A DNA stretch of 64,000 nt from Polytrichum commune (taxonomy: Eukaryota > Streptophyta > Polytrichopsida > Polytrichales > Polytrichaceae). The notes under the pieces were generated by a model. That model did not search any database. It saw only the letters and a list, made by a program, of their open reading frames with translations, and was not told the origin of the DNA. The position numbers and the translations under genes were made by a program. How positions within the stretch are numbered: position 1 is the stretch's first letter; each line of letters begins with the position of its first letter. Where the stretch lies: contig OX485804.1 in the NCBI GenBank assembly GCA_950295325.1, positions 23,190,001-23,254,000 of the forward strand, written 5' to 3'. Below are positions 1 to 52,852 of the stretch, in pieces.

Positions 1-157
1 CATTTTTCAAGGAGGAATGGTCTTGGGTATGAGCTACCATGCATGGTCCTGGAAAACTGTTTTAGGGAAACTAAATTGCACTTTTAGAGAGCAATTGAGC
101 ACTACTCTATTTGAATGCAACATACATCAGAAAAAGCCGGAATTTCTATTTTTCAGA

Positions 158-2411
158 TTACTGTTCCGGGTCGAAGACTGGGTTATCGTTGTGCGAATTC
201 CGCACCGAACATTTCTTACGAATCTGGCCTTGTGTGCCCGTCAGCACACCGATTTTGCCCATCTTTCGTAATGAAATGCCGAACTGCGCAAAGAACGCCT
301 TCTCGTGGCGAGCATAGTATTTCACCAACTTGAGTGTGCGGGGGTCATTAAACAATGTCTGGTCCGATGTAAATAGTGCAAGACCTTTCTTGAAGTTCTT
401 GAAGTACTGATTGTCGAAGACAAGAGGTGTGACAGGGTCCATGAAGAATTGCGTCTCATTGTTGAAGTTGGGGGCTTTGATTACCCCGTTGTCAGTGCAG
501 TTGGCCAGAAGCTCGCGCCCATACTTTTTCTTGTACTGGGGGTCTACGTGTGGGTAAATGCGGTCTACGATGCTGTTGCAATGGCCTTGGCCAATGGAAT
601 GTGCACCTGGAGGTCATGGTAGATCAATGATCAGAAACTGAGACCAAATCAAGATCGAAGCATCAAAATGGGCCAATGACTTTCTACATAACCAAACATC
701 AGAATCAGTGTGGCGCACCCTATGCTAGATGACAAGTCATGGAGACCATTCTAAAATAAACATAGCACAACAATTTTAATGCCACACTAAATTGGATATA
801 TCTTCTCTACAAAACTCTTCCATCAACAAGGAGGTTTTGGGGAATTTTCCACATGGGGAAACATGTACTGAAGTGGACAAAACCTGGGGGACGGGCCTCC
901 AGTCTCCAGGTTTTGCTGGTCCATCTCCCAGGTTTTGTCCATTGCTTTCCCACATGTTTCTCCATGTGAAAATTTCCAAAGTTCCTTGTGGTTTCAGTCC
1001 ATATTTCAGATGCAGCAAGCATCAGCTTGGATACGTTCAAAGCCATTTGGACTTTTCTATATGAGTGTGAGAAATTAAGAAAACTCGTAGAGGGTCAAGA
1101 CATTAAATGTACTTACCAGAGAGGACAACCAAGTCCACCAGGTTCAATCCAGCAGCTTCGAAATTTTCCAGTAGGCCGGACACATTGAGGTTAAATGGAG
1201 GCAAGTAAGTCTCCGAGTTTTCGGCGAAGGAAGTGAGTGAATCTCTCCGACCTAGTTCAATTGGGTACAATGGTCCGCCGGCCTGATCGCCCACAGTTAC
1301 AGATGATAACAAGTTAGCTTCGTTCAATTCCACGTATGCATAAAAATAAGCCCTCCCATCATGATCTCCAGCAGTCCTCTTCAGCCAAGAGCACACTCAC
1401 TCCAAGAGATTCCTTTCATATTTTCAATGCCTATTTGAATTTTCAATGCCTATCTTGATCAATGGTTCAATGGGGTGTAATGATCAGGCAGCCCAGTGAC
1501 CCACAAATGACAGTTAAATTCATTGTACTATGCATAGATTGCAGCAAGACACAAACCCTCCCACTGTGATCTCCAGCATAGTTACTCTTACAGGACACTC
1601 AAACCACAAAGTTTCACATTTTCCATGACCACATATATTTCAGAGAGCAGTCACTTCAGTTGGGCAAACGGTGAAGAGAACTTAGAAGACGATCAGTTAC
1701 CCTCATTAAATCTTATGTATGCTTACACGAATTCACTGTCCCATCATCCAGCATTATTTGTTAATCGAAAGAGGAGACTCCAAAGATGAAAATTTCGTTC
1801 TTTTATCACCACATGAATGTGAAGAGAATCTTCCCGATCGTTCCAACTTGCATGACTGTCAACAAAACCTTAAATAAAATGTTAGAAAAGAAGAAGAGGC
1901 AAGTATCCATTACCTGTGCAATGGAGTACACAGCCACAAGGGCCAGCACATCAGCACAAGACACGAGGCCCGGACACTCTTTCTCCAACACCTCCTTAAT
2001 CTCATCCACAATCTCAATATTGCCAATGCTAAAGTTAATGGGCGCCTCCTTCTCCCCCGTCCCTTTGGTAGAGTCCAGCAGCAGGGAGGCATCGCACCCC
2101 TGCACGAAGCAGTCGTGGAAGAACAAGCGAAGCAGGGGGGCTGGAGTGGTGGGATCGGTCTCCGTGTATTTCTGGATCACTCTCTTCACCACCGACCCCA
2201 GCTGCGGGCACTGCTTCTTGTAGTAGTGGAATTGCAAAGGGGGTGCGAGGTGAGCTCCCACATTCTGCATCCCCAGGTGCCGGTACTCCCTGGGCACAAA
2301 GTTGTAATGCCCAAAAACTCCACTCATCTGCTGCAACAACATGGAAATCAGCAGCAACAGCATTCTCCACAGATTTCCATTACAGGAATGACGCAGTACC
2401 ACTGTCCCCAT
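158..2411 (-). CDS. Class III secretory peroxidase, copy 1 (IR1 left arm)
   Basis: This gene encodes a haem peroxidase of the plant secretory pathway (EC 1.11.1.7), which oxidises phenolic substrates with H2O2 in the wall or apoplast. Three exons, 2411-1914, 1282-1117 and 606-158 (498+166+449 nt), join at GT-AG borders in phases 0 and 1 to give 370 residues, a little longer than the usual ~320-350. A hydrophobic signal peptide covers about residues 13-34. The distal haem motif RLFFHDCFVQGCD has Arg95 and His99; the proximal ligand in LSGAHSIGQGHC is His224. Eight cysteines at 68, 101, 106, 146, 152, 231, 258 and 354 fit the four family disulphides. The introns match canonical peroxidase introns 2 and 3; intron 1 is absent. 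About 30 residues lie between signal peptide and first Cys, more than usual. No lesion is seen. The right arm holds an apparently identical copy. Confidence 0.93.
828..987. repeat. Imperfect hairpin in peroxidase intron 2
   Basis: About 64 bp at 828-892 is the imperfect reverse complement of 925-987, around a short loop. Both arms carry versions of CACATGGRGAAACATGT followed by GGACAAAACCTGGG. It lies wholly in intron 2 of the peroxidase gene and has no open frame, so it is probably a small foldback or MITE-like insertion. The mirror copy is at 28185-28344. Confidence 0.7.
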
Positions 2412-2661
2412 TGATATCTACGATCCCACCTGAATGACTTTGCTGCCGATCGCGTCGAATCGAAGTTAACTTAACCCTGCATGCAGCAGTATTAAATACC
2501 GATCTAACTTGTGATGGTGACGAGTACTCCGTGTACTGATACGATGATCTGGTGCGTGCGGAGCTAAACTTGAAGCATTGGGAGCGGTTCCGATCAGGAA
2601 ACGCTGGTTGTTGATGCTTGTAGAGCTGATGTTGTGAGTCGTTGCGCGGTGAAGGTGTGTC

Positions 2662-2668
2662 ATATATA
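2662..2668 (-). promoter_or_regulatory. Putative TATA box of peroxidase copy 1
   Basis: On the minus strand the sequence reads TCCTATATATGACAC, about 250 bp upstream of the peroxidase ATG at 2411. It is the best TATA-like match in the promoter region. The implied 5' leader is long but plausible. The same box is at 26504-26510 in the other arm. Confidence 0.5.
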
Positions 2669-3049
2669 GGATTGAGGAGATGGGCAGGAGATTCTCCTGC
2701 GAGTGTGAGGGTTTATGGTGAGCTTGCCGCAGTGCTAGTGCCGCTTGCGCTGGGCACATGCCTTCTCTGGCGACCATCACCATGGCACATGCCCGGCTCA
2801 TAGTATCAAATATAGTCAACCCTAGGGCCTACTGCAAGCCTTATTGGTGGATGAGGAATCAGGATGCATGCATGAATGATTCACGGCTCACTTGTAGAAC
2901 TTTCTTAGAAGAAACTAACTTAACTTGTCGATTCCAAGCTCTAACCATCCGTTGCGATTCGTGGAGTGAAAACGCATAAAAACAATCAGTTTGGTTGCCG
3001 ATCGGAGGTTTTGGGTTGTCGGTTTTGCTAGATTCATGACCAAAAAATA

Positions 3050-3196
3050 CATAGCATTCTTCAGATCCATAACAATGTTCTATGGGACTGATAGTATTCT
3101 ACAATATATTCCCCGTACTTAGATTGAATGTGGGAAATATTTTGTAGAATATTGCCAGTCCCACAGATCATTGTTGTGGATCTGAATAATGCTATG
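3050..3196. repeat. Foldback (MITE-like) hairpin
   Basis: The segment starts CATAGCATT and ends AATGCTATG, and its two ~62-bp halves are imperfect reverse complements around a loop of about 17 nt. Differences between the halves show that it is older than the IR1 duplication. No clear target duplication is visible. The mirror copy is at 25976-26122. Confidence 0.7.
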
Positions 3197-3591
3197 ATGG
3201 CCTTATCAACTAAAATGAGCCAATTGGGCCATGATGAGACAGTCCTTTTGTCACATAACTACATTGCTTCACCCAAGTTTTTCAACTTGAATCTACCAGT
3301 GCAATGTACTCATGTGAGAATAAACAAAGTATAATTCTGAATAGAATCTCTCTTATTCCCGGCCCTATTTAGCGTACAAACTCAACTAGATAATGTTATG
3401 CATATACAACATACAAATCATGAATTTAACATGGTTTTATTGTATTTAATATCCATGTTCACTTTCTAATGAGAAAGTCATTGAACATTTTTTCATTAAT
3501 AGCATGTAACTCAACAATTGCATCAATCAAACAAAGACAATAGCATAATAACCTAGCCACAATTATGAGAGCAAAACTCAAGGGAGCCCAT

Positions 3592-3712
3592 AACACTATA
3601 TTAAACATTTCGGGACTTTGGCGTGAATATGGGACTTCTGGAGTGTCCATTGAGATGGCGATGGGAACGCGTTGGGAACGTATTGGGAACTCATTGGGAA
3701 CGCATTGGGAAC
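3592..3712. repeat. GGGAAC-rich dispersed repeat
   Basis: It opens with AACACTATATTAAACATTTC then GGGACTTT, and continues into four or five near-tandem TTGGGAACG-type units (period about 11-12 bp). A second member with the same opening lies at 21983-22165, directly abutting the inner edge of the right IR1 arm, so this is a dispersed family. The mirror copy is at 25460-25580. Confidence 0.6.
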
Positions 3713-4047
3713 AAAACCTGTGTTGTGTAACAGTGACCTCTAATGGACTCCCAGCTGATTGCAATACTACTTTGACCGGTTCAAATGTGTGGGTGAGTGG
3801 AGGCTACAGCCTTGTACTGGAAAGAAAAGAATTGGTAACTCATACACCAAGTTTGTAGAACAATTACTGTTTGAATTGAGATCTTTATTCCTGAAGCATA
3901 TGTCGAATGCTTCATTCTTAGGCTACTACATACATGTTTGTCTATATATGTCCCCACCGATATGTGGCTAAAGGGGACGCATTATCAACTAGAGTATTTA
4001 ATACATGTTGTGGCTTCTACAGGTCGCTCAATTGTAGTCCTGCCTCG

Positions 4048-6931
4048 TCAAGCGATACGATTATTTGCACGGTCACCCAATCCAGCCCGCAAAAGTCGAA
4101 CTGCCCTTGAATTAGGGCCTTGAGATTCAATGAGTGAAATTTGGTAGTCCCGTGTAGCAGCGGGGTGCACGATAGCCAAAGTTCCGCATGGAGGTGTTGA
4201 AGCATCTGCGAGGGTGCACATACTGGTGTCAACGCCCTCCACATGGTTAATGGTGGAAGGGAGCTTCGTCATGGCGGGTTGAGGGGCATAAGTCTTCCCA
4301 AGTCCTGCCAATCCAGCACGTAGAAGACGAACACCTCTTGAGTTAGGGCCTTGCGATTCGATTAGCGCAATTTGGTACTCGCGGGTAGGGGTGGGGCGCA
4401 TAATGGATAATGTATGGGCGGGTTGTGATCCATCATCCATTGGGGGGAGCATATTTAGGTCAACATCCTGCAGCCCGACATTGGCAAAAAACATTCTCCA
4501 ACTTATTGCCCCACAAATACCACCATCAACATTCATATACATGCACATACATTCCACGCCAAATGTTGGAGATTAGATAGAGATTGAAAAGGAGATTTGC
4601 AAATATTTATTTGGGTAAGAACATTCCCAGGTGAACAAAATGAGCTATATTTACCAGACTCTGTCCTTCAGGGGTTGCTTCAGCGAGGGGTGACACACTT
4701 TGAGAGTTAGCGACCCGGATAGCTTCTACGCCCATGTGGGCGACTGAGAAGGGATGGCGGGCCAGTACTACGTTGTGTTCATGCCGCGGGGTGAGACACA
4801 CGAATGCCGATCGCTTGGAAGTGGATGGTGTGTATCCAGTAGGAGGAAACTGAACAAAGCATATAATACACAATGTTACATGCCATACAATTCATGAACC
4901 TTACATCCCCTAACCTAAACCCTATATGCTAACTATCTTGGGACAACAGTTATAGGCAGCAAGTCGGGTCGATTGGAGTGCTTGTTGGCCATCATAAGTG
5001 ACTCCCTGACTGGATCGTTATGCGGGACCGGCGGTTGCCCAAATCTATGTGTGATCACAAAATCGCGTACGTCGCTCATTGTCGAATTGAACATACGTTG
5101 GAAGTAGGGGAGAAGAACTGCTCTCATATCCGCAGTTGCCTGTTTGTTGGTGGTGAAGGAATCGGGAAACAATACATTCCCGGGAGGATTACAAGCACCT
5201 TTGTAGGGGTTGTCATCCACAAGAACAGTGTTCTCAATAGTGGCAGTAACACGTCCGGAATCAAGAGATACAGGCGGCCACCAAAATGTTTTGTTTAAAC
5301 TCTTGAAGAACAATACTGATTCTGGCTTTAGGGGGTTCCTGATCTGATTGTCCCAAATGTCTTTGAATGTGATGCAATCCTCCTGGCCAAAAACTATTGC
5401 AGGTCTTGACATCCCATTGAATAGAAACTCCACCACGAGGTCCACAGTGGACTTTTTCATAGATGACCATATGCAAACATAGAACATTTGGGTCATTCTC
5501 TCCCAAAACTGCTTGTAACCCAGTCTAGGTAGGACAGCTTTGGGACCGACAATCGCCGGACCCTTGTCTGGCGCACGATCTTGCACCATCCATGTGGGGA
5601 AAGCGGAACGGCCGCGAGGAATACAATGACAAAATATGCCATTCAAATCGAACACCAGAATGAACCTTCGGTCGGGTACAGCAGCTAGCGCCTGGCGACA
5701 GGAATCCACTGTCAACTTCTCCTGCTTTACTCGAATTACATATAATGTTGCAACTAATGAAAATTGTGGAACTTCATATATTCAATAACTAACATTCATA
5801 TATTCAATAAGTGTATATATTGATATGGGGGTTTATAATGAACTACATATTAAAAGTTATTATGAACTGGGAAACCAATACCTCGAAAGTTATGGGATTG
5901 AATTCCCAGCGATCCGATGGTCCTAATGAAGGGTCTTGAGGGTCCCTAGAAATAAGTCTTTTAGCACACGCTATTCCCATCTCCCTCGTGAAAACTTGAG
6001 AGATGTTCCTATCGTACGTTGGGTAGTTGTCAGCGTAAACAAAAAGTTTATCATAAACAACGTGTGGGTTGAAGGGCGCATCCACAGTCGTTTGCGCACT
6101 TTGTCCACCCTGAACCCAAAACTACGCGGAGATGAATGTTTGGGACACAAATAAACCGGGTATATTGAAAAGAAAATCCAGTGGACCAAATGAAATTTTA
6201 TTGAGAAGGGGAAACGAAGCTTACACAAACTAAGTTTTTTGAGAAGGGGAAACGATGCTTACACAAACTGGGAGAGCTGGCCGCACACGCAGCTCTGGGC
6301 AAGTGACCTCGGAACGGCTGGCGTGCATAGCCCGCCAAGCCTCAAATGGACGTTCGGCTATTTTTGTATTGTCAGGGGGAAAGTCGGGGAACCTGTCGTC
6401 GCGTGGCCAACGTTCCACGACTTTCTTGACATGATGTGGGCCGACAGAAGATGAAGGCTCCGTTGGATCGACGACAGCGGGCTCCGTTGCATCAACGACA
6501 GGAGGCTCCTCACAATGTGGAGCCTCGGGTTGGCAAGGGCCTGCAGAAGAGGAAGGTTCCGTTGGCTCCACGGTAGCAGTACAGTAACAAGGTGGTGATA
6601 TTGGTTGCTGCAGGCCTGCAGATGATGACCCGGGCTCTGAATGTTCGATGACAGCCTGCTTCAGAGCAAGAGGTTTGATGGCAGCAATGTGGACCGGCGT
6701 GGGCGAAGGCGACTTGACCACATCATCGTCACTACCTATGGGCAAGAGGGGTGACCGATCCCCTTTGTCCAAAGGGGTGACGACAAGCGTTGGAGGACTT
6801 AGACATGTAGTGGCAATGGGGGCTTGCATGGGGCCAAATATAAGTGAGGTGTCCTCTTCGGCTGCACCCGTTTGCGGGACTGCTGCACATGGTGATTCTG
6901 GCCGTGTGAAATCAACGATTTGCAAACCAGC
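4048..6931 (-). CDS. NIF/FCP1-like HAD-domain protein, 3' exons (left copy)
   Basis: Exons read 6931-6263 (Pro/Ser/Glu-rich, 223 codons), 6109-5882, 5721-4933, then 4849-4655 and 4467-4048 beyond a TAG stop at 4933-4935. All borders are GT-AG in phase 0. The 5721-4933 exon has the FCP1/NIF (TIM50-type) HAD layout: a nucleophile-loop equivalent FDLNGIFCHC (Asp at exon residue 25), a CIWSSMKK motif II, a Lys in LKPESVLFF, and VLVDDNPYKGACNPP as motif IV. The usual DxDx(T/V) second Asp is Asn, as I recall for a plant FCP1-like subgroup, so phosphatase activity is doubtful. The last exon has two copies of a motif around LIESQGPNSRxVRLLRAGL, 77 residues apart. No donor precedes the TAG, so the last two exons may be 3' UTR, alternative or decayed. 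Upstream exons continue to 12.3 kb. Confidence 0.65.
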
Positions 6932-7248
6932 CTGTGAATTGAACATGCATTGTTAATGGCAGCCATTGCAGACAATGAATAGACGAAACACATTTCATTG
7001 AATGTAAAATGTACATCTTCCAAGTACCCAGTACATGGTGAGTTTGGCTACAACTAAAATGTCCTAAAGATTTTTAAGTCCAATGCTCTAGTCAGCCTTG
7101 GATTGCGATCTACAAACGGCTTCCTATTCTCCAAGTGGTTTGATTATGATGCGCGGCCTCCAACCTGGATCAAACATCCCGGCGGAGATTCAGTGACTAG
7201 CATGTTTAAAAACAATTGGAAAAGCGAGAATAGGTCAAGGATATTTAC

Positions 7249-8307
7249 CTCATCTTCAACAGGCTGGGAATCATGGGAAGGCCCCTCCACGCATCCGGCA
7301 TCTGCAGGTGAACTTTCCACTTCGTTCTTCTCGGCCGATTTCTCAGCAACCTCCGGTTGATCCACATGAGCTGGCTCGACTTGAGGAAGGACATCTTGGG
7401 GAGGGTCAGTACCAATGGGGACAGAAACAACCTCCGCATTTGCTGGTACAGGGGCCGGAGTAGGAATTGGCGTGGGCACGGCTTGAGAGGGTGGCATGGC
7501 TTGGGCCATGGCATCCTTGAACAGGCTCGTTAGTAAGCCTGGCAAATTTTTATTCAAAATGCCCATCATGAGAGGTTCCAAAACAGCCGTCGTAAGTGGG
7601 GGCTCCACGGGCTTACCATGGCGGCGTTTATGCCTATCCTTAGTTGAGGACCGACTTCGTGAGCGAGAGGACTTCCTATGTGGAGTGTCCATGGCACCAC
7701 TAGGACCAACATCGGTAGTACTGGGTCTGAGGGGACTCTGTGGAATGTCCATGGCACCACTAGGACCAACTTCGGCGGTACTGGGTCTCTGGGGACTACG
7801 TGCAGCAGGCTGTGGAGGTTGGTAGGTGTCGGGAATAGAACGAGGGGACTCCAAAACCACATCGACATCTTCGACGACATCTTCGACCTCCTCTTCGACA
7901 TCCTGGGCCTCTTGGATATCCTGATCCTCGTCAAGGGCATCCTGATCCTCTTCTTCGACATCCTGGTCCTCATCTTGGTGTTCCTCATCCTCCTGGTCCT
8001 CATCGTCAGCCGGGTCTTGGTCATCGCGGTCTTCGTCATCGAAGTCAAGTTGCTTCGCTCGCAGCGGCGAAGCACCGAGATCGCAGGCAGTCGACATATG
8101 CTCTTCCAACGGAGTCAAACCGCCAGTGGCATCATCGTCCGAGTGCTGGGACGTGTGGGGGGATTCGCCATGGCTCTCGACGTCGGTATCCCGTTCACTT
8201 GGAGGCTCTACAGACTCATCATCTTCATCGTCAGGAAGATCTTCCACATCGGAGGGGTTTCGGTCAATGTCCATGGCCTCGATCGGTTCGCGATCTTCGA
8301 CATCCTC
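7249..8307 (-). CDS. Acidic and RS-rich exon of the HAD-domain locus
   Basis: This 353-codon exon has acceptor TACACAG| and donor GAG|GTAAATA and is open throughout in phase 0. The first ~150 residues are dominated by Asp/Glu/Gln runs (DEDQD-type repeats). Next come two near-repeats containing RPSTxxVGPSGAMDxP, an RS/KR-rich basic patch with SRSRSRSSTKDRHKRR that could be a nuclear localisation signal, and a Pro/Ala/Val-rich tail. No folded domain is evident. It joins the Pro/Ser/Glu-rich exon at 6931-6263 across the intron in which the IR1 left arm ends, so this exon is single-copy here. From here to the HAD-exon stop the frame is open for 914 residues. It is probably a disordered linker of a nuclear protein (inference). 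Confidence 0.6.
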
Positions 8308-8411
8308 CTGTGTAGCAACCATACAATGTCAACAACTATCTCATATAAAGGGGGAGTGAGAAAATGATGATTTTCATAAACACAAGAAAGTAATTCATTA
8401 GCAATACTTAC

Positions 8412-10071
8412 CAAAAGCAAGGGTGGATCTGGGTTGAGGTCAGGGTGAATGTGGCCATCGTGGGCTTGGTACTCATCTTCATCTTCGGCTTGTTCAGCAA
8501 AATCCTTCAGCTTAAGTACGCGAACACGTTGAATCAACGCGTCCAGAATATGCAAGAATGCCGAATCCATGTAGGAAAAGACGTTGTAATCGTGCATCTG
8601 GAAAATCAATGAGGTTAGAAAAATGGAAGAGGGAAGAGGTGAAAGGGAACGAATTGAGATAGTTCAGATAGGTGGAACTCACCAACGCTGCAGCAACTGG
8701 TTTCAAGTCCCCAAATAGATTGAGAACCATGCCTCCGGCGGAGCCCATGTACTCCAAGAATTTAATATAGACCTCTATTCTGAGCTCCCCTCGATTCACT
8801 TCATATGTCAACTCAGACCAATCCTTGGGTTTTACTTTGTATCGGCGCGAATCCGGGGCTAGCATTGGACATGCAATTACCTTCCACTTGGGAAATTTAT
8901 CTGGGACAATGAGGTGGTCGATGTAGAGGGCAGGGGTTTGCCTCTTTCCATCTATTTCTTTGGGGTCGGCTAATTCCTCTGCAGGACAAGGGAAATAGAA
9001 CGACGGGACGATCACAAACGTATTGGGATATCTGCGCATAAGCGACGACATGAATATGAGCGAGGCATCGTGGCTACGCAAGTCGGAGACAATCATCCAA
9101 GCTGGAACAGATTTCACCCCTGGTGTCCATTCCGGAGAGCACAAGTATTTAACCAAGAACTCCACAACTTCAGGAGGGATTGGTTCATCTACACATCCAG
9201 GGATGAACCTGAAGTCCAGAAACCCCGCGGCAATGATGTTTCCCTCAATCCACTCAACATCACTGGAATCTTGCTTGGGAATCACCAATCGTTTCTTAAT
9301 GGCATTATGCGACACCCACCGCGTGATCACTTGCCCTGTGCATTCGTTGAAATCTGTTTGCAGCCAGTCGCGAAGCAATCGGTCTAATGCCGGCTATACC
9401 GGCAAGGACTTGTTGTTAGTTGCCATTTTCTTGTTCAGCCAATCTGAAGTCGCAACCTGGTAGAACTTTACCCATTTCGGCTTTGTAATTCCATGCTCCC
9501 GTTTGAATTTTGTCCATACGTCGCGATCGAGGAACCCATGCCCCTCATCATCTTTCTTCCACAAGCAAACTTTATTGGGATCCCGCCTATCCAACTCCTG
9601 CAGCAAGATATTCTTCTACTTGCGGAAATTGCACCATGACTTCAGTGTCACGACTTTGCTGTTCTTGCAAGTCCTAAGAGTGACACTAGGAACGCCGTCC
9701 TCTCCCCTCCCTTCTAGAAGCCGTCTCGCTTCCAGGTGAAAGTCAGGCTTTGTGAGTCATGACATGTTCTTGAACGTCTCCCTTGTAAGGGGTTTAGTCA
9801 CGAAAGGTTTCTCCTCGAAGGGTGTTCCTGCCTTGGACTTCTCGTGGCGAGCTCACAATTTTTGCTGAGCCTCCACATGATCTTCCAGGTATGTGCGTCC
9901 TGGCTTGTCCGGGTTGATAAATAAACCCTTCTCGTGCGACACGAACACTTTCTTCCACAATCTTGATGTTTCCTCAGGGGCCATAATTAACGTGAGTTCC
10001 GCTTTAAGATCGTTATGCGTGATCCCTCTTGCGATTGCGGTGAATGATGCCTCCATGCTGGTAGTGAAGTT
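8412..10071 (-). pseudogene. Degenerate permuted DNA methylase-like exons
   Basis: Exon 10071-8683 (463 codons, acceptor TGTGCAG|, donor TTG|GTGAGT) joins exon 8597-8412 (62 codons), both phase 0. Coding-like sequence runs across four in-frame stops at 9853-9855 (TGA), 9757-9759 (TGA), 9616-9618 (TAG) and 9394-9396 (TAG). The 3' part resembles a beta-type amino-methylase: WMIVSDLRSHD sits where SDPPY is expected, and GGMVLNLFGDLKPVAAAL, followed by MHDYNVFSYM, resembles the glycine-rich SAM motif placed C-terminally. Both motifs have lost key residues, so catalysis is unlikely. It follows a ParB-like segment, as in prokaryotic ParB-methylase fusions. The domain call is a motif-level inference. 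Confidence 0.5.
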
Positions 10072-10126
10072 CTGCACATCACGGATACAGAAGTGAGATT
10101 CATGATGAACACAATGTGAAGGCTCA

Positions 10127-10154
10127 CCACTTTCACTCGATCGAGTGAAAGTGG
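10127..10154. repeat. 26-bp palindrome family, isolated copy
   Basis: A perfect 28-bp palindrome made of CCACTTTCACTCGA followed by its reverse complement. It lies in the intron between the ParB-like exon (ends 10217) and the methylase-like exon (starts 10071). The central 26 bp match the clustered copies at 11693-12086, about 1.5 kb away in another intron of the same locus. Confidence 0.95.
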
Positions 10155-10216
10155 TGTGAGGCCATGGTCACCACTTGAGGGAGCAGATGAATTAAGGGGA
10201 GCAGAGAGTAACATAC

Positions 10217-11635
10217 CTTCCAAGCCAATGCTTTCTCAGGGTCCTGTGTGGCCTCAGAGGCGTTCGCACGTTGCTTTTCGGGCTTGTTCAATTTCACCCA
10301 TACCCTACGACAATACAGAATTTGTGTAGTCCATGTTGGTGTGAACTTGTTGAACGAGTTCGAATTGTTCAATGTATATGAAAGCCTGACGGTCATGCTG
10401 GGGTCCTCTGTCCACACAATTGTGCAGGGCCACACCTTCAACTTTTCCTTGAGCTTAGGATCCGTATCTCTATGAGCAATTATTTCCGTAGATGCGGCTA
10501 TAGTATGTTGCCCATTGATTATGGCGAATTGCATGTTCTTGATGTCATCCCTTCTCGCCATGTCTCACCTTTCTTAAACTTCGGCATCAAACACAGATTG
10601 TGTTGAGGCCATGCAGGTGGGGTTTGGATGAGGTAGTTATTCATGAGGTTCACCCCACTTGGATCCAGCGGCCGCGTAACCTGATAAGCTTTTGCGCCCT
10701 TCATTTGCTTGATGGGTACACGGAATATCGATTCTGCGCCGAATGGATAAATGTGCCCAAAAGTTGCAAAAACTTCTTCCTATCCAGAGCAGCTTCCTCA
10801 AGGCTGGGTTGTTGACCTTGCGATATAACTCGACCCTTCTCCGCTTGAATCAAGACCAGTGGGGTGTCCTCATGCATAACATCGTCTTGCTTCATTTTCT
10901 TTTGCTTTGGTTTCTTCTCGGGTGACAATGCCCTCTTTCCTTTCTTTTTCCTTCCACTCCCGGCATCCCCAGCATCCCTCTCCGTGTTCTGAGTATCTGG
11001 TGCAACGTGGGGCTCCACCTCGTGAGGCTTCTCTCTCTCCGTCTCCTTTGATGCAGTTCGCTCTTCAGTTTGTTTCCCCTTCTTTGCCTTCGATTTTTGT
11101 CCAATAGAGTTGCCACCTTCGTCGGCCTTGGACTTCAATATACCCTCGGCTTGCTTCTTCTTTTGCTGCCTTGATTCTTCACGTGTAGCTGCCTCTCTAC
11201 TGTTGATGTCTTCCAATGTCTCCAACACAAAGTTTATGGCTCTTTTGGTTATTCCAGATGACATCACCTTCTCTATCTCTTCCTTCTCCTTTGAAGGGAG
11301 TGAGGCTACGGACTCATAAAATGGCACCAAGAGAAATGTATGCTTCTTGCAATCTATAGATAAAATTCTCTCTTCCACCCCCTCCATAACCGAAACCTCT
11401 AGCCTATCCCTCGCTCCCACATGAGCGATGGTAATTGGATTTCCAGGGTTCGGAATCCAACTATTGTTTACCTTGTACGTGAATATAAGGTCGTACCCTG
11501 GAGATTGGTTTTTCTTGTTAATAGCCAGTGACCACTTCTGCAAATGGGAGTCCCTAATTACCCATTGAGGACCATTTGGCCCTGCTTGTCTGGATCCAAC
11601 TAGATCTGTCCATAAAACAACTTTGTCCATTCTTC
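10217..11635 (-). pseudogene. ParB-like domain exon with Lys/Glu-rich region, frameshifted
   Basis: The acceptor is TTTGCAG| at 11636 and the donor is TGGAAG|GTATGT after 10217. The first ~150 codons (WTDLVGSRQAG, NSWIPNPGNPITIAH) match no family I know. A long Lys/Glu/Arg-rich stretch follows (KKKGKRALSPEKKPKQKK), probably disordered and nuclear. The end resembles a ParB/sulfiredoxin-type fold: IFRVPIKQMKGAKAYQVTRP, then LDPSGVNLMNNYL, then FAIINGQHTIAAS in place of the xxDGQHR box. Two single-base disruptions break it: near 10738-10745 (the frame ends in TGA at 10701 while the conserved frame continues) and near 10545-10555 (between FKKGETWRE and DDIKNMQF). It is single-copy in this window and joins the methylase-like exon in phase 0. 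Confidence 0.5.
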
Positions 11636-11692
11636 CTGCAAAGTCCCCCAATAAGTTAGGAAACCACATAACTCCACAATCCATCCAGCCAG

Positions 11693-12097
11693 CACTTTCA
11701 CTCGATCGAGTGAAAGTGGGGCTTGGCCATCAAGCAAGCAAGCCAGCCATCTACTGGCCACTTTCACGCGATCGAGTGAAAGTGGCCAGTAGATGGCTGG
11801 CTGCAGCACTTTCACTCGATCGCGTGAAAGTGCTAGCTTCTCCTCTTTCTCTCTGGCTGGCTAGCCAAGCCCCACTTTCACTCGATCGAGTGAAAGTGTT
11901 GGCTTGTCTTGCGAGCCAGTAAGCCAACCAGCCAGCCATCCATCCAGCTAGCCAACACGAGCCACACTTTCACTCGATCGAGTGAAAGTTCCGGCTGGCT
12001 TGTCTTGGCTAGCTTGATGGATGGCTGACTGGTTGGCTTACTGGCTCGCAAGACAAGCCACACTTTCACTCGATCGAGTGAAAGTGTGGCTTGTCTT
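11693..12097. repeat. Cluster of six 26-bp palindromes in nested inverted repeats
   Basis: Six copies of the palindrome (CACTTTCACTCGA plus its reverse complement) lie at 11693-11718, 11759-11784, 11807-11832, 11873-11898, 11965-11990 and 12061-12086. Four are perfect or differ at one edge base; two have a CGCG variant near the centre. Linkers are built from AGCCAGCC/GGCTGGCT words and are mutually inverted. The 11759 copy is centred in a ~60-bp palindrome, the 12061 copy in a perfect 48-bp palindrome (12050-12097), and the linkers on either side of the 11965 copy are reverse complements over ~70 bp. All lie in the 467-bp intron 11636-12102. Open frames here encode only the repeat-derived peptide LSLDRVKV and are not genes. 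Confidence 0.95.
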
Positions 12098-20733: not shown

Positions 20734-21982
20734 CGGTGAGGAGTAGGGTTGATGGGCCTCCGGAGGCTACTCAATCTTAACTAATATTTAACTCACACAT
20801 CAACTTTTCGCCTATTGGTTACACTATTGGAGTCAATTTGTTTAGGGTACAAGGGTTTAGGGTCAATTTGAGACGGCATCCTCTAATGTTAGTTGGCGGC
20901 ACAAATTTCGAATGTTAGTTGGAGGCACAATTTCCGAATGTTTGTTTGTCAGCGCAAAATTGAAATTGTTGTTGATTCAGAAATGTTTTCTGTTTACGAA
21001 ATACCCCAGAGATGTTGTTGATCACAAATGTTGTTGGTTTCACATTTGCAAACTTTAAGGTGACTAACCCAAACATCATGATCAAGGTTGCAAATACCAA
21101 GTATTACTCACCCGCCAAGTTAAAGCGATCATTATACCACCGATAAGAAGCCAAATGAAAAGACGTCCAAGTGAGGACTCCGAGGCTAACCAATGAGGTT
21201 CATTTCCCTAGGTTACTAAGGCAGATGGTCCACAATCCACTCAAATTTCAGTCTCAGATTGTCAATAAAGCACCTTTAACTCCGACCATATTAAATACAA
21301 CCCAAAACCCTCAATAGCACAGCGATCATCACAATTTTGTGACTTACCATTGAAAACGTCTGTCATTCTGAAATGGAACTCAAATTAGGATGTTTATTCT
21401 ATAGCAGATTAGTTGATAGCACACCACTTTCACAAATTATTCACATTCAACTAATTGAATGTAATTACGTATAAATAACCTTAACTAATCTCAATAAATA
21501 AGAAAGTATGCTTCACATATTGCATGTAAAACAATTAACACTAGCAAATTGATGTTTATCTATAAATCAGACCATCACAACCGGGTCATCTGTAACCCGC
21601 GTTTGGCAGTCATGGATTACGATTTAGCAACGAGAACCACAAAAAATCAAAATTGAAAGTAATACCCCTGTGGAAAATAGTGGTTGTTCGCACCTATATC
21701 CCCATTTTTTTAACACACTGAGTGAACCCAGAGATGTTATTGTGTTGTGACATGGCCCGAGCTCGTTGAATTGGGTGAACCCAAAATTATGGGCCAAACC
21801 TTGGCGTAGGGGCCAATTGAATGTCATATTTCACATCAAAACAAAATCCTTACATCTAGTATCGTTTATAGCGAACTAGATCCATTGGATTATGTGGAAA
21901 TTTATACTACTCTTTCCCAAATTAGTTCTTGAACATTTGGGTCACTGAATTGGCCTAGCGTCTTGACCCTAAAGCCTTTAAC

Positions 21983-22165
21983 ACTATATTAAACATTTCG
22001 GGACTTTTGGGAGTCCCAAAGTGAAGATTTTTTTACATTTTGGGGACATGGGAACATATTTATTGCTCCCAGGAACATGCAACTAGCTTGTGGGAACGTG
22101 GGAACAATGAAGTTAGACCATGTGAATGCCAGATGCGCACGTGGGAGCCTATGTATGGGAACGTG
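21983..22165. repeat. GGGAAC-family repeat abutting the IR1 inner edge
   Basis: It begins AACACTATATTAAACATTTC then GGGACTTTTGGGAGTCCC, and continues with several GGGAACR motifs to ATGGGAACGTG. The next base (22166) is the first base of the right IR1 arm. The opening matches the family member at 3592-3712 inside the arm. Its position makes it a candidate for the sequence at which the duplication joined. Confidence 0.65.
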
Positions 22166-22240
22166 TACATTCAATGAAATGTGTTTCGTCTATTCATTGT
22201 CTGCAATGGCTGCCATTAACAATGCATGTTCAATTCACAG

Positions 22241-25124
22241 GCTGGTTTGCAAATCGTTGATTTCACACGGCCAGAATCACCATGTGCAGCAGTCCCGCAA
22301 ACGGGTGCAGCCGAAGAGGACACCTCACTTATATTTGGCCCCATGCAAGCCCCCATTGCCACTACATGTCTAAGTCCTCCAACGCTTGTCGTCACCCCTT
22401 TGGACAAAGGGGATCGGTCACCCCTCTTGCCCATAGGTAGTGACGATGATGTGGTCAAGTCGCCTTCGCCCACGCCGGTCCACATTGCTGCCATCAAACC
22501 TCTTGCTCTGAAGCAGGCTGTCATCGAACATTCAGAGCCCGGGTCATCATCTGCAGGCCTGCAGCAACCAATATCACCACCTTGTTACTGTACTGCTACC
22601 GTGGAGCCAACGGAACCTTCCTCTTCTGCAGGCCCTTGCCAACCCGAGGCTCCACATTGTGAGGAGCCTCCTGTCGTTGATGCAACGGAGCCCGCTGTCG
22701 TCGATCCAACGGAGCCTTCATCTTCTGTCGGCCCACATCATGTCAAGAAAGTCGTGGAACGTTGGCCACGCGACGACAGGTTCCCCGACTTTCCCCCTGA
22801 CAATACAAAAATAGCCGAACGTCCATTTGAGGCTTGGCGGGCTATGCACGCCAGCCGTTCCGAGGTCACTTGCCCAGAGCTGCGTGTGCGGCCAGCTCTC
22901 CCAGTTTGTGTAAGCATCGTTTCCCCTTCTCAAAAAACTTAGTTTGTGTAAGCTTCGTTTCCCCTTCTCAATAAAATTTCATTTGGTCCACTGGATTTTC
23001 TTTTCAATATACCCGGTTTATTTGTGTCCCAAACATTCATCTCCGCGTAGTTTTGGGTTCAGGGTGGACAAAGTGCGCAAACGACTGTGGATGCGCCCTT
23101 CAACCCACACGTTGTTTATGATAAACTTTTTGTTTACGCTGACAACTACCCAACGTACGATAGGAACATCTCTCAAGTTTTCACGAGGGAGATGGGAATA
23201 GCGTGTGCTAAAAGACTTATTTCTAGGGACCCTCAAGACCCTTCATTAGGACCATCGGATCGCTGGGAATTCAATCCCATAACTTTCGAGGTATTGGTTT
23301 CCCAGTTCATAATAACTTTTAATATGTAGTTCATTATAAACCCCCATATCAATATATACACTTATTGAATATATGAATGTTAGTTATTGAATATATGAAG
23401 TTCCACAATTTTCATTAGTTGCAACATTATATGTAATTCGAGTAAAGCAGGAGAAGTTGACAGTGGATTCCTGTCGCCAGGCGCTAGCTGCTGTACCCGA
23501 CCGAAGGTTCATTCTGGTGTTCGATTTGAATGGCATATTTTGTCATTGTATTCCTCGCGGCCGTTCCGCTTTCCCCACATGGATGGTGCAAGATCGTGCG
23601 CCAGACAAGGGTCCGGCGATTGTCGGTCCCAAAGCTGTCCTACCTAGACTGGGTTACAAGCAGTTTTGGGAGAGAATGACCCAAATGTTCTATGTTTGCA
23701 TATGGTCATCTATGAAAAAGTCCACTGTGGACCTCGTGGTGGAGTTTCTATTCAATGGGATGTCAAGACCTGCAATAGTTTTTGGCCAGGAGGATTGCAT
23801 CACATTCAAAGACATTTGGGACAATCAGATCAGGAACCCCCTAAAGCCAGAATCAGTATTGTTCTTCAAGAGTTTAAACAAAACATTTTGGTGGCCGCCT
23901 GTATCTCTTGATTCCGGACGTGTTACTGCCACTATTGAGAACACTGTTCTTGTGGATGACAACCCCTACAAAGGTGCTTGTAATCCTCCCGGGAATGTAT
24001 TGTTTCCCGATTCCTTCACCACCAACAAACAGGCAACTGCGGATATGAGAGCAGTTCTTCTCCCCTACTTCCAACGTATGTTCAATTCGACAATGAGCGA
24101 CGTACGCGATTTTGTGATCACACATAGATTTGGGCAACCGCCGGTCCCGCATAACGATCCAGTCAGGGAGTCACTTATGATGGCCAACAAGCACTCCAAT
24201 CGACCCGACTTGCTGCCTATAACTGTTGTCCCAAGATAGTTAGCATATAGGGTTTAGGTTAGGGGATGTAAGGTTCATGAATTGTATGGCATGTAACATT
24301 GTGTATTATATGCTTTGTTCAGTTTCCTCCTACTGGATACACACCATCCACTTCCAAGCGATCGGCATTCGTGTGTCTCACCCCGCGGCATGAACACAAC
24401 GTAGTACTGGCCCGCCATCCCTTCTCAGTCGCCCACATGGGCGTAGAAGCTATCCGGGTCGCTAACTCTCAAAGTGTGTCACCCCTCGCTGAAGCAACCC
24501 CTGAAGGACAGAGTCTGGTAAATATAGCTCATTTTGTTCACCTGGGAATGTTCTTACCCAAATAAATATTTGCAAATCTCCTTTTCAATCTCTATCTAAT
24601 CTCCAACATTTGGCGTGGAATGTATGTGCATGTATATGAATGTTGATGGTGGTATTTGTGGGGCAATAAGTTGGAGAATGTTTTTTGCCAATGTCGGGCT
24701 GCAGGATGTTGACCTAAATATGCTCCCCCCAATGGATGATGGATCACAACCCGCCCATACATTATCCATTATGCGCCCCACCCCTACCCGCGAGTACCAA
24801 ATTGCGCTAATCGAATCGCAAGGCCCTAACTCAAGAGGTGTTCGTCTTCTACGTGCTGGATTGGCAGGACTTGGGAAGACTTATGCCCCTCAACCCGCCA
24901 TGACGAAGCTCCCTTCCACCATTAACCATGTGGAGGGCGTTGACACCAGTATGTGCACCCTCGCAGATGCTTCAACACCTCCATGCGGAACTTTGGCTAT
25001 CGTGCACCCCGCTGCTACACGGGACTACCAAATTTCACTCATTGAATCTCAAGGCCCTAATTCAAGGGCAGTTCGACTTTTGCGGGCTGGATTGGGTGAC
25101 CGTGCAAATAATCGTATCGCTTGA
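22241..25124 (+). pseudogene. 5'-truncated copy of the NIF/FCP1-like HAD-domain locus
   Basis: Exons 22241-22909, 23063-23290, 23451-24239 (HAD domain, ends TAG), 24323-24517 and 24705-25124 match those of the left copy. The acidic exon, methylase-like and ParB-like exons are absent because IR1 ends at 22166, inside the preceding intron. The first remaining exon has its acceptor (AATTCACAG|) but no upstream donor, start codon or native promoter. It is therefore a fragment unless transcription starts in the spacer. The HAD exon itself is uninterrupted, with FDLNG and VLVDDNPYKG intact. Confidence 0.65.
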
Positions 25125-26503
25125 CGAGGCAGGACTACAATTGAGCGACCTGTAGAAGCCACAACATGTATTAAATACTCTAGTTGATAATGCGTCCCCT
25201 TTAGCCACATATCGGTGGGGACATATATAGACAAACATGTATGTAGTAGCCTAAGAATGAAGCATTCGACATATGCTTCAGGAATAAAGATCTCAATTCA
25301 AACAGTAATTGTTCTACAAACTTGGTGTATGAGTTACCAATTCTTTTCTTTCCAGTACAAGGCTGTAGCCTCCACTCACCCACACATTTGAACCGGTCAA
25401 AGTAGTATTGCAATCAGCTGGGAGTCCATTAGAGGTCACTGTTACACAACACAGGTTTTGTTCCCAATGCGTTCCCAATGAGTTCCCAATACGTTCCCAA
25501 CGCGTTCCCATCGCCATCTCAATGGACACTCCAGAAGTCCCATATTCACGCCAAAGTCCCGAAATGTTTAATATAGTGTTATGGGCTCCCTTGAGTTTTG
25601 CTCTCATAATTGTGGCTAGGTTATTATGCTATTGTCTTTGTTTGATTGATGCAATTGTTGAGTTACATGCTATTAATGAAAAAATGTTCAATGACTTTCT
25701 CATTAGAAAGTGAACATGGATATTAAATACAATAAAACCATGTTAAATTCATGATTTGTATGTTGTATATGCATAACATTATCTAGTTGAGTTTGTACGC
25801 TAAATAGGGCCGGGAATAAGAGAGATTCTATTCAGAATTATACTTTGTTTATTCTCACATGAGTACATTGCACTGGTAGATTCAAGTTGAAAAACTTGGG
25901 TGAAGCAATGTAGTTATGTGACAAAAGGACTGTCTCATCATGGCCCAATTGGCTCATTTTAGTTGATAAGGCCATCATAGCATTATTCAGATCCACAACA
26001 ATGATCTGTGGGACTGGCAATATTCTACAAAATATTTCCCACATTCAATCTAAGTACGGGGAATATATTGTAGAATACTATCAGTCCCATAGAACATTGT
26101 TATGGATCTGAAGAATGCTATGTATTTTTTGGTCATGAATCTAGCAAAACCGACAACCCAAAACCTCCGATCGGCAACCAAACTGATTGTTTTTATGCGT
26201 TTTCACTCCACGAATCGCAACGGATGGTTAGAGCTTGGAATCGACAAGTTAAGTTAGTTTCTTCTAAGAAAGTTCTACAAGTGAGCCGTGAATCATTCAT
26301 GCATGCATCCTGATTCCTCATCCACCAATAAGGCTTGCAGTAGGCCCTAGGGTTGACTATATTTGATACTATGAGCCGGGCATGTGCCATGGTGATGGTC
26401 GCCAGAGAAGGCATGTGCCCAGCGCAAGCGGCACTAGCACTGCGGCAAGCTCACCATAAACCCTCACACTCGCAGGAGAATCTCCTGCCCATCTCCTCAA
26501 TCC

Positions 26504-26510
26504 TATATAT
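26504..26510 (+). promoter_or_regulatory. Putative TATA box of peroxidase copy 2
   Basis: TCCTATATATGACAC, 251 bp upstream of the ATG at 26761, is identical to the box of copy 1. The two copies are transcribed divergently, outward from the spacer. Confidence 0.5.
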
Positions 26511-26760
26511 GACACACCTTCACCGCGCAACGACTCACAACATCAGCTCTACAAGCATCAACAACCAGCGTTTCCTGATCGGAACCGCTCCCAATGCTTC
26601 AAGTTTAGCTCCGCACGCACCAGATCATCGTATCAGTACACGGAGTACTCGTCACCATCACAAGTTAGATCGGTATTTAATACTGCTGCATGCAGGGTTA
26701 AGTTAACTTCGATTCGACGCGATCGGCAGCAAAGTCATTCAGGTGGGATCGTAGATATCA

Positions 26761-29014
26761 ATGGGGACAGTGGTACTGCGTCATTCCTGTAATGGAAATC
26801 TGTGGAGAATGCTGTTGCTGCTGATTTCCATGTTGTTGCAGCAGATGAGTGGAGTTTTTGGGCATTACAACTTTGTGCCCAGGGAGTACCGGCACCTGGG
26901 GATGCAGAATGTGGGAGCTCACCTCGCACCCCCTTTGCAATTCCACTACTACAAGAAGCAGTGCCCGCAGCTGGGGTCGGTGGTGAAGAGAGTGATCCAG
27001 AAATACACGGAGACCGATCCCACCACTCCAGCCCCCCTGCTTCGCTTGTTCTTCCACGACTGCTTCGTGCAGGGGTGCGATGCCTCCCTGCTGCTGGACT
27101 CTACCAAAGGGACGGGGGAGAAGGAGGCGCCCATTAACTTTAGCATTGGCAATATTGAGATTGTGGATGAGATTAAGGAGGTGTTGGAGAAAGAGTGTCC
27201 GGGCCTCGTGTCTTGTGCTGATGTGCTGGCCCTTGTGGCTGTGTACTCCATTGCACAGGTAATGGATACTTGCCTCTTCTTCTTTTCTAACATTTTATTT
27301 AAGGTTTTGTTGACAGTCATGCAAGTTGGAACGATCGGGAAGATTCTCTTCACATTCATGTGGTGATAAAAGAACGAAATTTTCATCTTTGGAGTCTCCT
27401 CTTTCGATTAACAAATAATGCTGGATGATGGGACAGTGAATTCGTGTAAGCATACATAAGATTTAATGAGGGTAACTGATCGTCTTCTAAGTTCTCTTCA
27501 CCGTTTGCCCAACTGAAGTGACTGCTCTCTGAAATATATGTGGTCATGGAAAATGTGAAACTTTGTGGTTTGAGTGTCCTGTAAGAGTAACTATGCTGGA
27601 GATCACAGTGGGAGGGTTTGTGTCTTGCTGCAATCTATGCATAGTACAATGAATTTAACTGTCATTTGTGGGTCACTGGGCTGCCTGATCATTACACCCC
27701 ATTGAACCATTGATCAAGATAGGCATTGAAAATTCAAATAGGCATTGAAAATATGAAAGGAATCTCTTGGAGTGAGTGTGCTCTTGGCTGAAGAGGACTG
27801 CTGGAGATCATGATGGGAGGGCTTATTTTTATGCATACGTGGAATTGAACGAAGCTAACTTGTTATCATCTGTAACTGTGGGCGATCAGGCCGGCGGACC
27901 ATTGTACCCAATTGAACTAGGTCGGAGAGATTCACTCACTTCCTTCGCCGAAAACTCGGAGACTTACTTGCCTCCATTTAACCTCAATGTGTCCGGCCTA
28001 CTGGAAAATTTCGAAGCTGCTGGATTGAACCTGGTGGACTTGGTTGTCCTCTCTGGTAAGTACATTTAATGTCTTGACCCTCTACGAGTTTTCTTAATTT
28101 CTCACACTCATATAGAAAAGTCCAAATGGCTTTGAACGTATCCAAGCTGATGCTTGCTGCATCTGAAATATGGACTGAAACCACAAGGAACTTTGGAAAT
28201 TTTCACATGGAGAAACATGTGGGAAAGCAATGGACAAAACCTGGGAGATGGACCAGCAAAACCTGGAGACTGGAGGCCCGTCCCCCAGGTTTTGTCCACT
28301 TCAGTACATGTTTCCCCATGTGGAAAATTCCCCAAAACCTCCTTGTTGATGGAAGAGTTTTGTAGAGAAGATATATCCAATTTAGTGTGGCATTAAAATT
28401 GTTGTGCTATGTTTATTTTAGAATGGTCTCCATGACTTGTCATCTAGCATAGGGTGCGCCACACTGATTCTGATGTTTGGTTATGTAGAAAGTCATTGGC
28501 CCATTTTGATGCTTCGATCTTGATTTGGTCTCAGTTTCTGATCATTGATCTACCATGACCTCCAGGTGCACATTCCATTGGCCAAGGCCATTGCAACAGC
28601 ATCGTAGACCGCATTTACCCACACGTAGACCCCCAGTACAAGAAAAAGTATGGGCGCGAGCTTCTGGCCAACTGCACTGACAACGGGGTAATCAAAGCCC
28701 CCAACTTCAACAATGAGACGCAATTCTTCATGGACCCTGTCACACCTCTTGTCTTCGACAATCAGTACTTCAAGAACTTCAAGAAAGGTCTTGCACTATT
28801 TACATCGGACCAGACATTGTTTAATGACCCCCGCACACTCAAGTTGGTGAAATACTATGCTCGCCACGAGAAGGCGTTCTTTGCGCAGTTCGGCATTTCA
28901 TTACGAAAGATGGGCAAAATCGGTGTGCTGACGGGCACACAAGGCCAGATTCGTAAGAAATGTTCGGTGCGGAATTCGCACAACGATAACCCAGTCTTCG
29001 ACCCGGAACAGTAA
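26761..29014 (+). CDS. Class III secretory peroxidase, copy 2 (IR1 right arm)
   Basis: The exons are 26761-27258, 27890-28055 and 28566-29014, joined at CAG|GTAATG...GATCAG|GCC and TCTG|GTAAGT...CTCCAG|GTG. They encode the same 370-residue secreted haem peroxidase as the left arm, with distal Arg95/His99, proximal His224 and eight conserved Cys. Introns are 631 and 510 bp. The ATG at 26761 opens a hydrophobic leader (WRMLLLLISMLLQQM). The segment after exon 1 reads AGGPLYPIELGRRDS, so the frequent family wording ARD before the GGP motif is replaced by VYSIAQ. No disabling change is seen. Promoter and UTRs lie inside the arm, so both copies could be expressed equally. Confidence 0.93.
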
Positions 29015-29171
29015 TCTGAAAAATAGAAATTCCGGCTTTTTCTGATGTATGTTGCATTCAAATAGAGTAGTGCTCAATTGCTCTCTAAAAGTGCAATTTA
29101 GTTTCCCTAAAACAGTTTTCCAGGACCATGCATGGTAGCTCATACCCAAGACCATTCCTCCTTGAAAAATG

Positions 29172-51934: not shown

Positions 51935-52852
51935 ATGATACCACTTCTACAGCATGCTAGCTAATTAATGCCACTTGAAGTGTTGGTAGAAACTCCAGCG
52001 CCATGGATTTGTGGTAAAATAATCTCAAATGGGCCTCGTTGACTGATTATGGCCCTCTGATGCTAATTCTGGGCTCAAACAGTATGAGCATATGGGAATT
52101 CCATTTGAAGCTGGATCCCTGAAAGCTGGACTACCGATAATGATCATGCGGGTTGACTTCGTGCTGTGCACTGCAGTGTGTGTGTTGCCGAATTAGCCGG
52201 CACAATTACGCCGTGCAGGTTGCTTCCTATTAATTAATTATGAAACAAAATTTAGCTTCTGAGCACCGCTGCCCCACCAAAGACCGAAGACGGCACTACA
52301 TATATAAGTAGTATGCAGTATACCTTCCATCGGTGCAGGGAGTGGGCAGCATCTCCGAAGCATCACAACTTGCAGCAAGTTCTTAAGTTGATTATGTGAA
52401 CTTCTGAAGTGCGGCCTCCTCCAGTAGTACTTAAACTGCTGCTCATCATACGTAGTGGTCAATACTAGAAAGTCTGTCAGCAGGAGCGTGACTTAGCATA
52501 GGTCATCATCAATCATCATCTCCCTTACAACACAGTTTTGTTTTGCTGCCGGAAGCAAGCCGATCAGTTGCTCGCCCATTTCACTCTCACTCCTCGGCAG
52601 CCATAACAGTAAGGTCACGATCATCGAGCAGCCGCGTCCGCTCGAGGAATCCTCTGGGAAGTTAGTAGTTAGCTTGCCCTCGTCAGTAGCTGCTGCACTG
52701 AGGAGCTCCTGTATGCTTAGAATTCGCAGCGTCGTTCCACATTCCACCAGCGATCATAGGTATCTATAGGTCTAGGTATCACACAAAAAGGATCGAATCC
52801 ACCTGTGGAAAAAGACTAGGCCAGTGGGATCATCGATCAGGTGGGTTGCACG
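51935..52852. other. Upstream region of peroxidase B
   Basis: This is probable promoter and 5' leader; no other gene is supported. A TATA-like box lies at 52301-52308. Confidence 0.5.
52301..52308 (+). promoter_or_regulatory. Putative TATA box of peroxidase B
   Basis: TATATAAG about 550 bp upstream of the ATG at 52853. It is the best TATA match upstream, but the distance implies a long leader or a leader intron. Confidence 0.4.

Follow-up and report, generated by a model that had tools for sequence, protein, structure and literature searches.

The seven palindromes studied here lie inside a large DNA transposon with terminal inverted repeats (TIRs), represented in this DNA by a decayed copy. 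Judged from their sequence, they probably serve as family-specific sites for a dimeric protein, itself likely element-encoded, that would control or protect the element's own genes. The window, by which we mean the whole 64,000-nucleotide stretch of Polytrichum commune DNA under analysis, corresponds to C2:23190001-23254000 of the 408-Mb genome.

As a sequence-only reading of this DNA had claimed, the window holds seven 26-bp palindromes; on closer inspection, four of them are perfect and three have one mismatch. One perfect copy stands apart at 10128..10153; the other six form a cluster at 11693..11718 (perfect), 11759..11784 and 11807..11832 (one mismatch each), 11873..11898 (perfect), 11965..11990 (one mismatch) and 12061..12086 (perfect), none being assigned a strand. 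The 13-bp half-site, allowing two mismatches, has 14 matches in the window, all 14 within the seven palindromes, as compared with a mean of 1.15 and a largest value of 4 in 100 shuffled windows. The linkers were also described as inverted copies of each other, and this is borne out: linker 11785-11806 aligns in inverted orientation to 11719-11758 with a score of 36 (maximum of 200 shuffles, 16), and linker 11991-12060 to 11899-11964 with a score of 110 (shuffle maximum, 22). Whichever way it is turned, a palindrome is homologous to itself, so that recombination between two sites can leave a linker duplicated or inverted; the nested palindromes may be a by-product of such exchange.

Two parts of that reading need revision. 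First, the sites had been assigned to two introns. This stands for the site at 10128, which lies in a GT...AG intron between exons 1 and 2 of the partner gene described below; the cluster of six is found upstream of the earliest coding exon that was recognised, in what may be either a promoter or an intron of the 5'-UTR. Second, the 26-mer had been seen nowhere else. That is true inside the window, but a genome-wide search allowing three mismatches returned 255 sites (reversed-pattern control, 0); confinement to this locus, the outcome that would have counted against the family, was thus not observed.

The element to which the palindromes belong is represented by a copy on C1 (copy E, C1:63187271-63210330), which spans 23,060 bp between 28-bp inverted repeats, AACACTATATTAAACATTTCGGGACTTT. 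In the window, the partner-side (right) end of the element is at 3592..3619 on the minus strand, the plus strand reading AACACTATATTAAACATTTCGGGACTTT. Genome-wide, the 28-bp TIR has 70 + 62 matches at up to three mismatches. Exact 4-bp target duplications were found at 15 of the 18 end pairs tested, and these 15 elements measure 22.2-31.5 kb, 11 of them less than 24.5 kb. The three remaining pairs have unequal flanks: two belong to the window locus, with its inverted and duplicated copies, and in the third, on C6, each flank is the reverse complement of the other. We shall refer to these elements as family A. They carry a DUF7869 gene and, divergent from it, a partner gene in which no domain was recognised, together with a frame for a NIF-type phosphatase. 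The left-gene protein matches DUF7869 with E = 4e-40 and 137.9 bits, the Pfam cut-off being 26 bits, and is presumed to be the transposase. At least 69 genome matches were obtained for the DUF7869 protein and at least 87 for the second exon of the partner. In the window, the phosphatase frame is at 4933..5781 on the minus strand (PF03031, E = 3.9e-10), and an acidic open reading frame lies inside the element, downstream of the partner exons, at 7144..8328 on the same strand.

The surroundings of the window copy are rearranged. Window positions 1-7006 and 22166-29171 form an inverted duplication with 100.000% identity across 7,006 bp, which may reflect a very recent event, gene conversion or an artefact of assembly. 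On a larger scale, window 3592-25580 and C2:23261352-23283298 are the arms, about 22 kb long and 99.9% identical, of a large palindrome centred near window position 48445. The element flanks at this palindrome (ATGG, CTTT) look exchanged, which suggests ectopic recombination or alternative transposition. Peroxidase-type frames sit beside transposon copies at window positions 1806-2417, 26755-27366 and 52820-53413, the first recognised by Pfam and the others by eye.

Could the palindromes be a separate, hairpin-mobilised intron invader that landed at this locus, as had been suggested? Palindromes and nested palindromes certainly exist here. Nevertheless, the palindromes are internal to a TIR transposon, and among the 50 family A sites listed, all on C1, 45 have an element-protein match within 10 kb and 49 have one within 50 kb, the 10-kb zones round such matches making up about 0.8% of C1. 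Likewise, for the second family, B, 63 of the 100 sites listed, again from C1, fall within TIR pairs, 18 have a single end at a distance of 20 kb or less, and 19 are near no listed end. We regard the invader as highly improbable.

Alternatively, the palindromes might be required for movement, like the subterminal repeats of other transposons. Their being element-specific and repeated is what would be expected of such sites. Against this, all 20 palindromes of copy E are kilobases from the ends, none being closer than 4.2 kb to the left end or 6.8 kb to the right. Moreover, two short forms are free of palindromes, that is, they have no palindrome core at up to three mismatches, and show equal 4-bp flanks. 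One of these consists of 185 bp of the left end and 3.4 kb of the right end; its copy in the window (21980..25580, plus strand) has the unequal flanks CTTT/ATGG, and its inverted copy, at 71352-74952 in extended coordinates outside the window, has AAAG on both flanks. The other is at C1:53390548-53393042, flanked by CTAA. A deletion in the middle of the element after insertion would look alike, so these forms are no proof of palindrome-free movement. On balance, a role in transposition appears unlikely.

In the copies examined, the palindromes are regularly placed relative to the genes. In copy E they occupy three places: one lies upstream of the DUF7869 gene, another upstream of the partner's first coding exon, and the third in the intron that separates exons 1 and 2 of the partner. 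Two further subfamily elements, at C2:50.16 Mb and C4:16.46 Mb, of which both sides were fetched, have palindromes in all three of these places.

The internal design of the sites is equally regular. Family A arms vary by subfamily (TTTCACTCG, TTCCACTCG and TTCCTCTCG), and the family pattern, TTYCWCTCGNNCGAGWGRAA, has 653 exact sites in the genome (control, 0). Spacer lengths from 0 to 20 bp were tested between the arms at the family A loci scanned. At one mismatch or fewer, every site (125/125) has a 2-bp spacer; at up to two mismatches, 141 sites have 2 bp and two have 20 bp; and at up to three, 145 have 2 bp and 35 matches have other lengths. Sites in one array are copies of each other, and all these counts therefore exaggerate the independent evidence. 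The two spacer bases themselves are free to vary, 47 of the 144 family A sites scanned having a non-palindromic centre. Each palindrome is thus a twofold-symmetric pair of half-sites set 2 bp apart, the geometry that would be expected for a dimeric DNA-binding protein, and this spacing, together with arms that stay constant and spacer bases that vary freely, fits a dimeric protein on double-stranded DNA. Of the three options offered by the sequence-only reading, a dimeric protein-binding array would be the best fit to the near-invariant spacer length and its variable bases.

The third of those options, an intronic RNA hairpin, would mean that the palindromes work within the RNA, where they might, for instance, affect how it is spliced or how stable it is; the hairpins would share a loop of four bases, G-NN-C or similar. 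A 2-bp spacer would indeed yield such a loop, and one array is intronic in families A, B and D. The arms, however, argue otherwise. Among 1,395 arm pairs from 155 family A sites, mismatches include 18 G-U and 16 A-C pairs; wobble pairs are thus not favoured, which makes RNA hairpins less likely. Furthermore, within a family the arm sequence itself is constant, beyond mere complementarity. We consider action as RNA improbable.

A more mundane possibility is that the arrays are passive minisatellites, spread by slippage and unequal exchange and devoid of function. Palindrome copy number does vary between elements, and the linkers are inverted and duplicated, both of which agree with this idea. 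It does not account for arms that stay constant when linkers and spacer bases vary, or for placement conserved across families whose palindromes are unrelated in sequence, and we view it as quite unlikely. Hence, with binding by a dimeric protein preferred, control of the element's own genes would most likely be what remains as the function.

The conservation across families just mentioned comes from DUF7869 loci outside family A. Eleven such loci were fetched, those of families B, D and E being picked from matches above the Pfam cut-off; the DUF7869 score of family C is 158.2 bits. Palindrome arrays were present within the fetched stretch at 7 of the 11. No array was found in the stretch fetched at the remaining four (L067, L074, L075 and L077); according to genome listings, there are family E sites some 1.2 kb past the edge of L074, and L075 has a family C site some 0.5 kb outside it. 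The palindromes are TTTGGGTCG-NN-CGACCCAAA in family B, CCACGGGYG-NN-CRCCCGTGG in family C, TTTACGGACG-NN-CGTCCGTAAA in family D and GGTGAGGCA-NN-TGCCTCACC in family E. Thus, the five families have unrelated palindrome sequences in a common format: arms of 9-10 bp, almost always a 2-bp spacer, and variable spacer bases. Among exact sites in the fetched loci, with spacers of 0-15 bp tested, the 2-bp spacer was found in 57/57 cases for B, 14/14 for D and 9/9 for C. Exact matches in the genome number 9,731 for B, 1,063 for C, 1,147 for D and 155 for E, with all reversed-pattern controls at 0; together with family A, this amounts to more than 12,000 exact palindrome sites in one genome. Family B arms with spacers of 3-12 bp occur 172 times in the genome. 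The 50 such long-spacer sites listed have one common 11-bp spacer or its one-base variant, and with a spacer so nearly constant they look like one separate repeat, 29 bp long, seen at C1:1020528-1020556 and 49 further listed places.

Family B resembles family A at its termini as well. One of its ends has AACACTATATT in common with family A, the 11-bp TIR start being identical. Its TIR occurs 393 + 407 times at up to one mismatch, and 4-bp duplications were found at all 10 pairs tested. A NIF phosphatase match is present in families A, B, C and D. Two other frames in the fetched loci may be recorded here: a frame of 398 residues beside the family E palindromes and opposite to the DUF7869 frame (L073:5798-6991), with no match to the partner profiles, and a frame of 886 residues near a family B element (L066:6343-9000), which by eye resembles a Ty3/gypsy-type polyprotein.

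Comparison of the partner gene between families supplies the strongest of these observations. In the window it is decayed, and all of its parts are on the minus strand. The first coding exon, with an NGQHT motif, covers 10217..11635 (the latter coordinate is approximate), and its frame is broken at about 10700; the second covers 8515..10071, with four in-frame stops in the match. Between them, the palindrome-bearing intron at 10072..10216 runs from GTATGT to GTGCAG, splice signals that were assigned by eye from the DNA. Partner genes were recognised in family B (E = 2e-26 and 1.4e-20) and, with family A profiles, in family D (E = 2.5e-18 and 5.1e-22), these E-values being computed over the frames of a single locus; the proteins are 24-27% identical to those of family A. 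In A, B and D the same partner intron starts one codon past a conserved tryptophan codon and has GT/AG bounds, as read from DNA only, and in B and D it contains the palindromes of those families. The homologous intron has therefore kept its position, and the palindrome sequence within it is wholly turned over across the three families. Searches of the stretches fetched for family C, of 18.0 and 15.6 kb, and of 7 kb from family E turned up no homologue of the partner.

What kind of protein the partner is was addressed by several searches. Against Pfam, NCBIfam and the PDB, no family was matched at E < 0.01, so that no DNA-binding domain was recognised in the partner; weaker matches include YEATS, at E 0.02 in one of five members. 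Searches of PHROGs gave weak matches only (best E, 0.027), and two scans of viral contigs with profiles, which yielded 54 and 68 pattern matches, revealed no relative. A single PDB profile match at E 0.43 was taken as chance. Two candidates noted by eye gained no support, ParB-like from a GQH motif and N6/N4 methyltransferase from an NxFGG motif, since neither a profile nor a structure of the respective type was matched up to E 10. Structure prediction for a partner piece, window 8629-9390, was uninformative (pLDDT 34). The dN of the partner is 0.22-0.34, as opposed to 0.07-0.11 for the DUF7869 gene; synonymous sites of the partner are saturated, so dN/dS is not computable and the higher dN may reflect history rather than selection. 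The family A sequence TTTCAC...GTGAAA presumably resembles bacterial parS; in families B to E, the arms used for searching do not contain it.

Having weighed these alternatives, we propose that a dimeric binder, most likely the partner protein, would occupy the arrays, and that this binding would activate or de-silence the element's genes. The presence of different palindromes near the genes of related DUF7869 families suggests, at the level of sequence comparison, a family-specific recognition code. Going one step further, and tentatively, one might imagine a superfamily of eukaryotic transposons with a private palindromic address code, in which a dimer of the partner, possibly a ParB-like clamp, keeps its own family active against silencing, and in which co-change of protein and palindrome gives rise to new families; we hold this extended version to be of rather low probability. 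Were the proposal correct, these five families, with their different palindromes in one format, would allow a direct test of how a DNA-binding protein and its target co-evolve, and a link would be drawn between DUF7869, as yet a domain of unknown function, and a group of transposons that have 4-bp duplications.

How do these elements compare with known systems? Among the papers listed in the literature searched, coverage of which is incomplete, none was found on such palindromes, nor on DUF7869. CACTA/En-Spm transposons have subterminal protein-binding repeats, 3-bp duplications and CACTA termini, and they encode another protein in addition to their transposase. The DUF7869 elements likewise have repeated motifs and a second gene. 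They differ in that En-Spm motifs are subterminal and duplications there are 3 bp, whereas the DUF7869 elements have arrays kilobases inside, 4-bp duplications and AACACTA ends.

Chapaev/CMC transposons are described as having 3-4 bp target duplications, termini of 5'-CAC...GTG-3', and a transposase with C(2)C and H(4)H motifs (PMC4079192). The 4-bp duplications of families A and B fall in this range. A candidate C(2)C motif is invariant in four aligned DUF7869 proteins, and a candidate H(4)H motif reads HDKMDH in A, A2 and B and HDKMDY in C. Compared with this description, the DUF7869 elements differ in having internal palindrome arrays and ends of AACAC...GTGTT, not CAC...GTG; with such ends, they lack a defining Chapaev feature. 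Passages of a further paper (PMC12730594) deal with other transposons.

The closest parallel is with the VANDAL transposons of Arabidopsis. As described in two reports (PMC5735166; PMC10398659), the VANC protein causes loss of DNA methylation and binds short motifs that are located in introns as well as upstream; the motifs, which are 8-9 bp long and described as arrayed in one orientation, differ between related VANDAL families. The DUF7869 elements also have arrays of family-specific motifs in their noncoding parts, both within an intron and upstream of the genes, and here too each family has a motif of its own. By that description of the VANC motifs, the two systems differ in architecture, half-sites being paired 2 bp apart in the one and all motifs running in the same orientation in the other. 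They differ too in that binding and demethylation are established for VANC, whereas for the DUF7869 elements they would be predictions from sequence. A profile search with the partner exons of A, B and D gave no Pfam match at E < 0.01. Though no relationship of protein or site was detected, the system, if our proposal is right, would work like VANC and its targets, and family-specific self-activation or anti-silencing would have evolved in transposons other than VANDALs.
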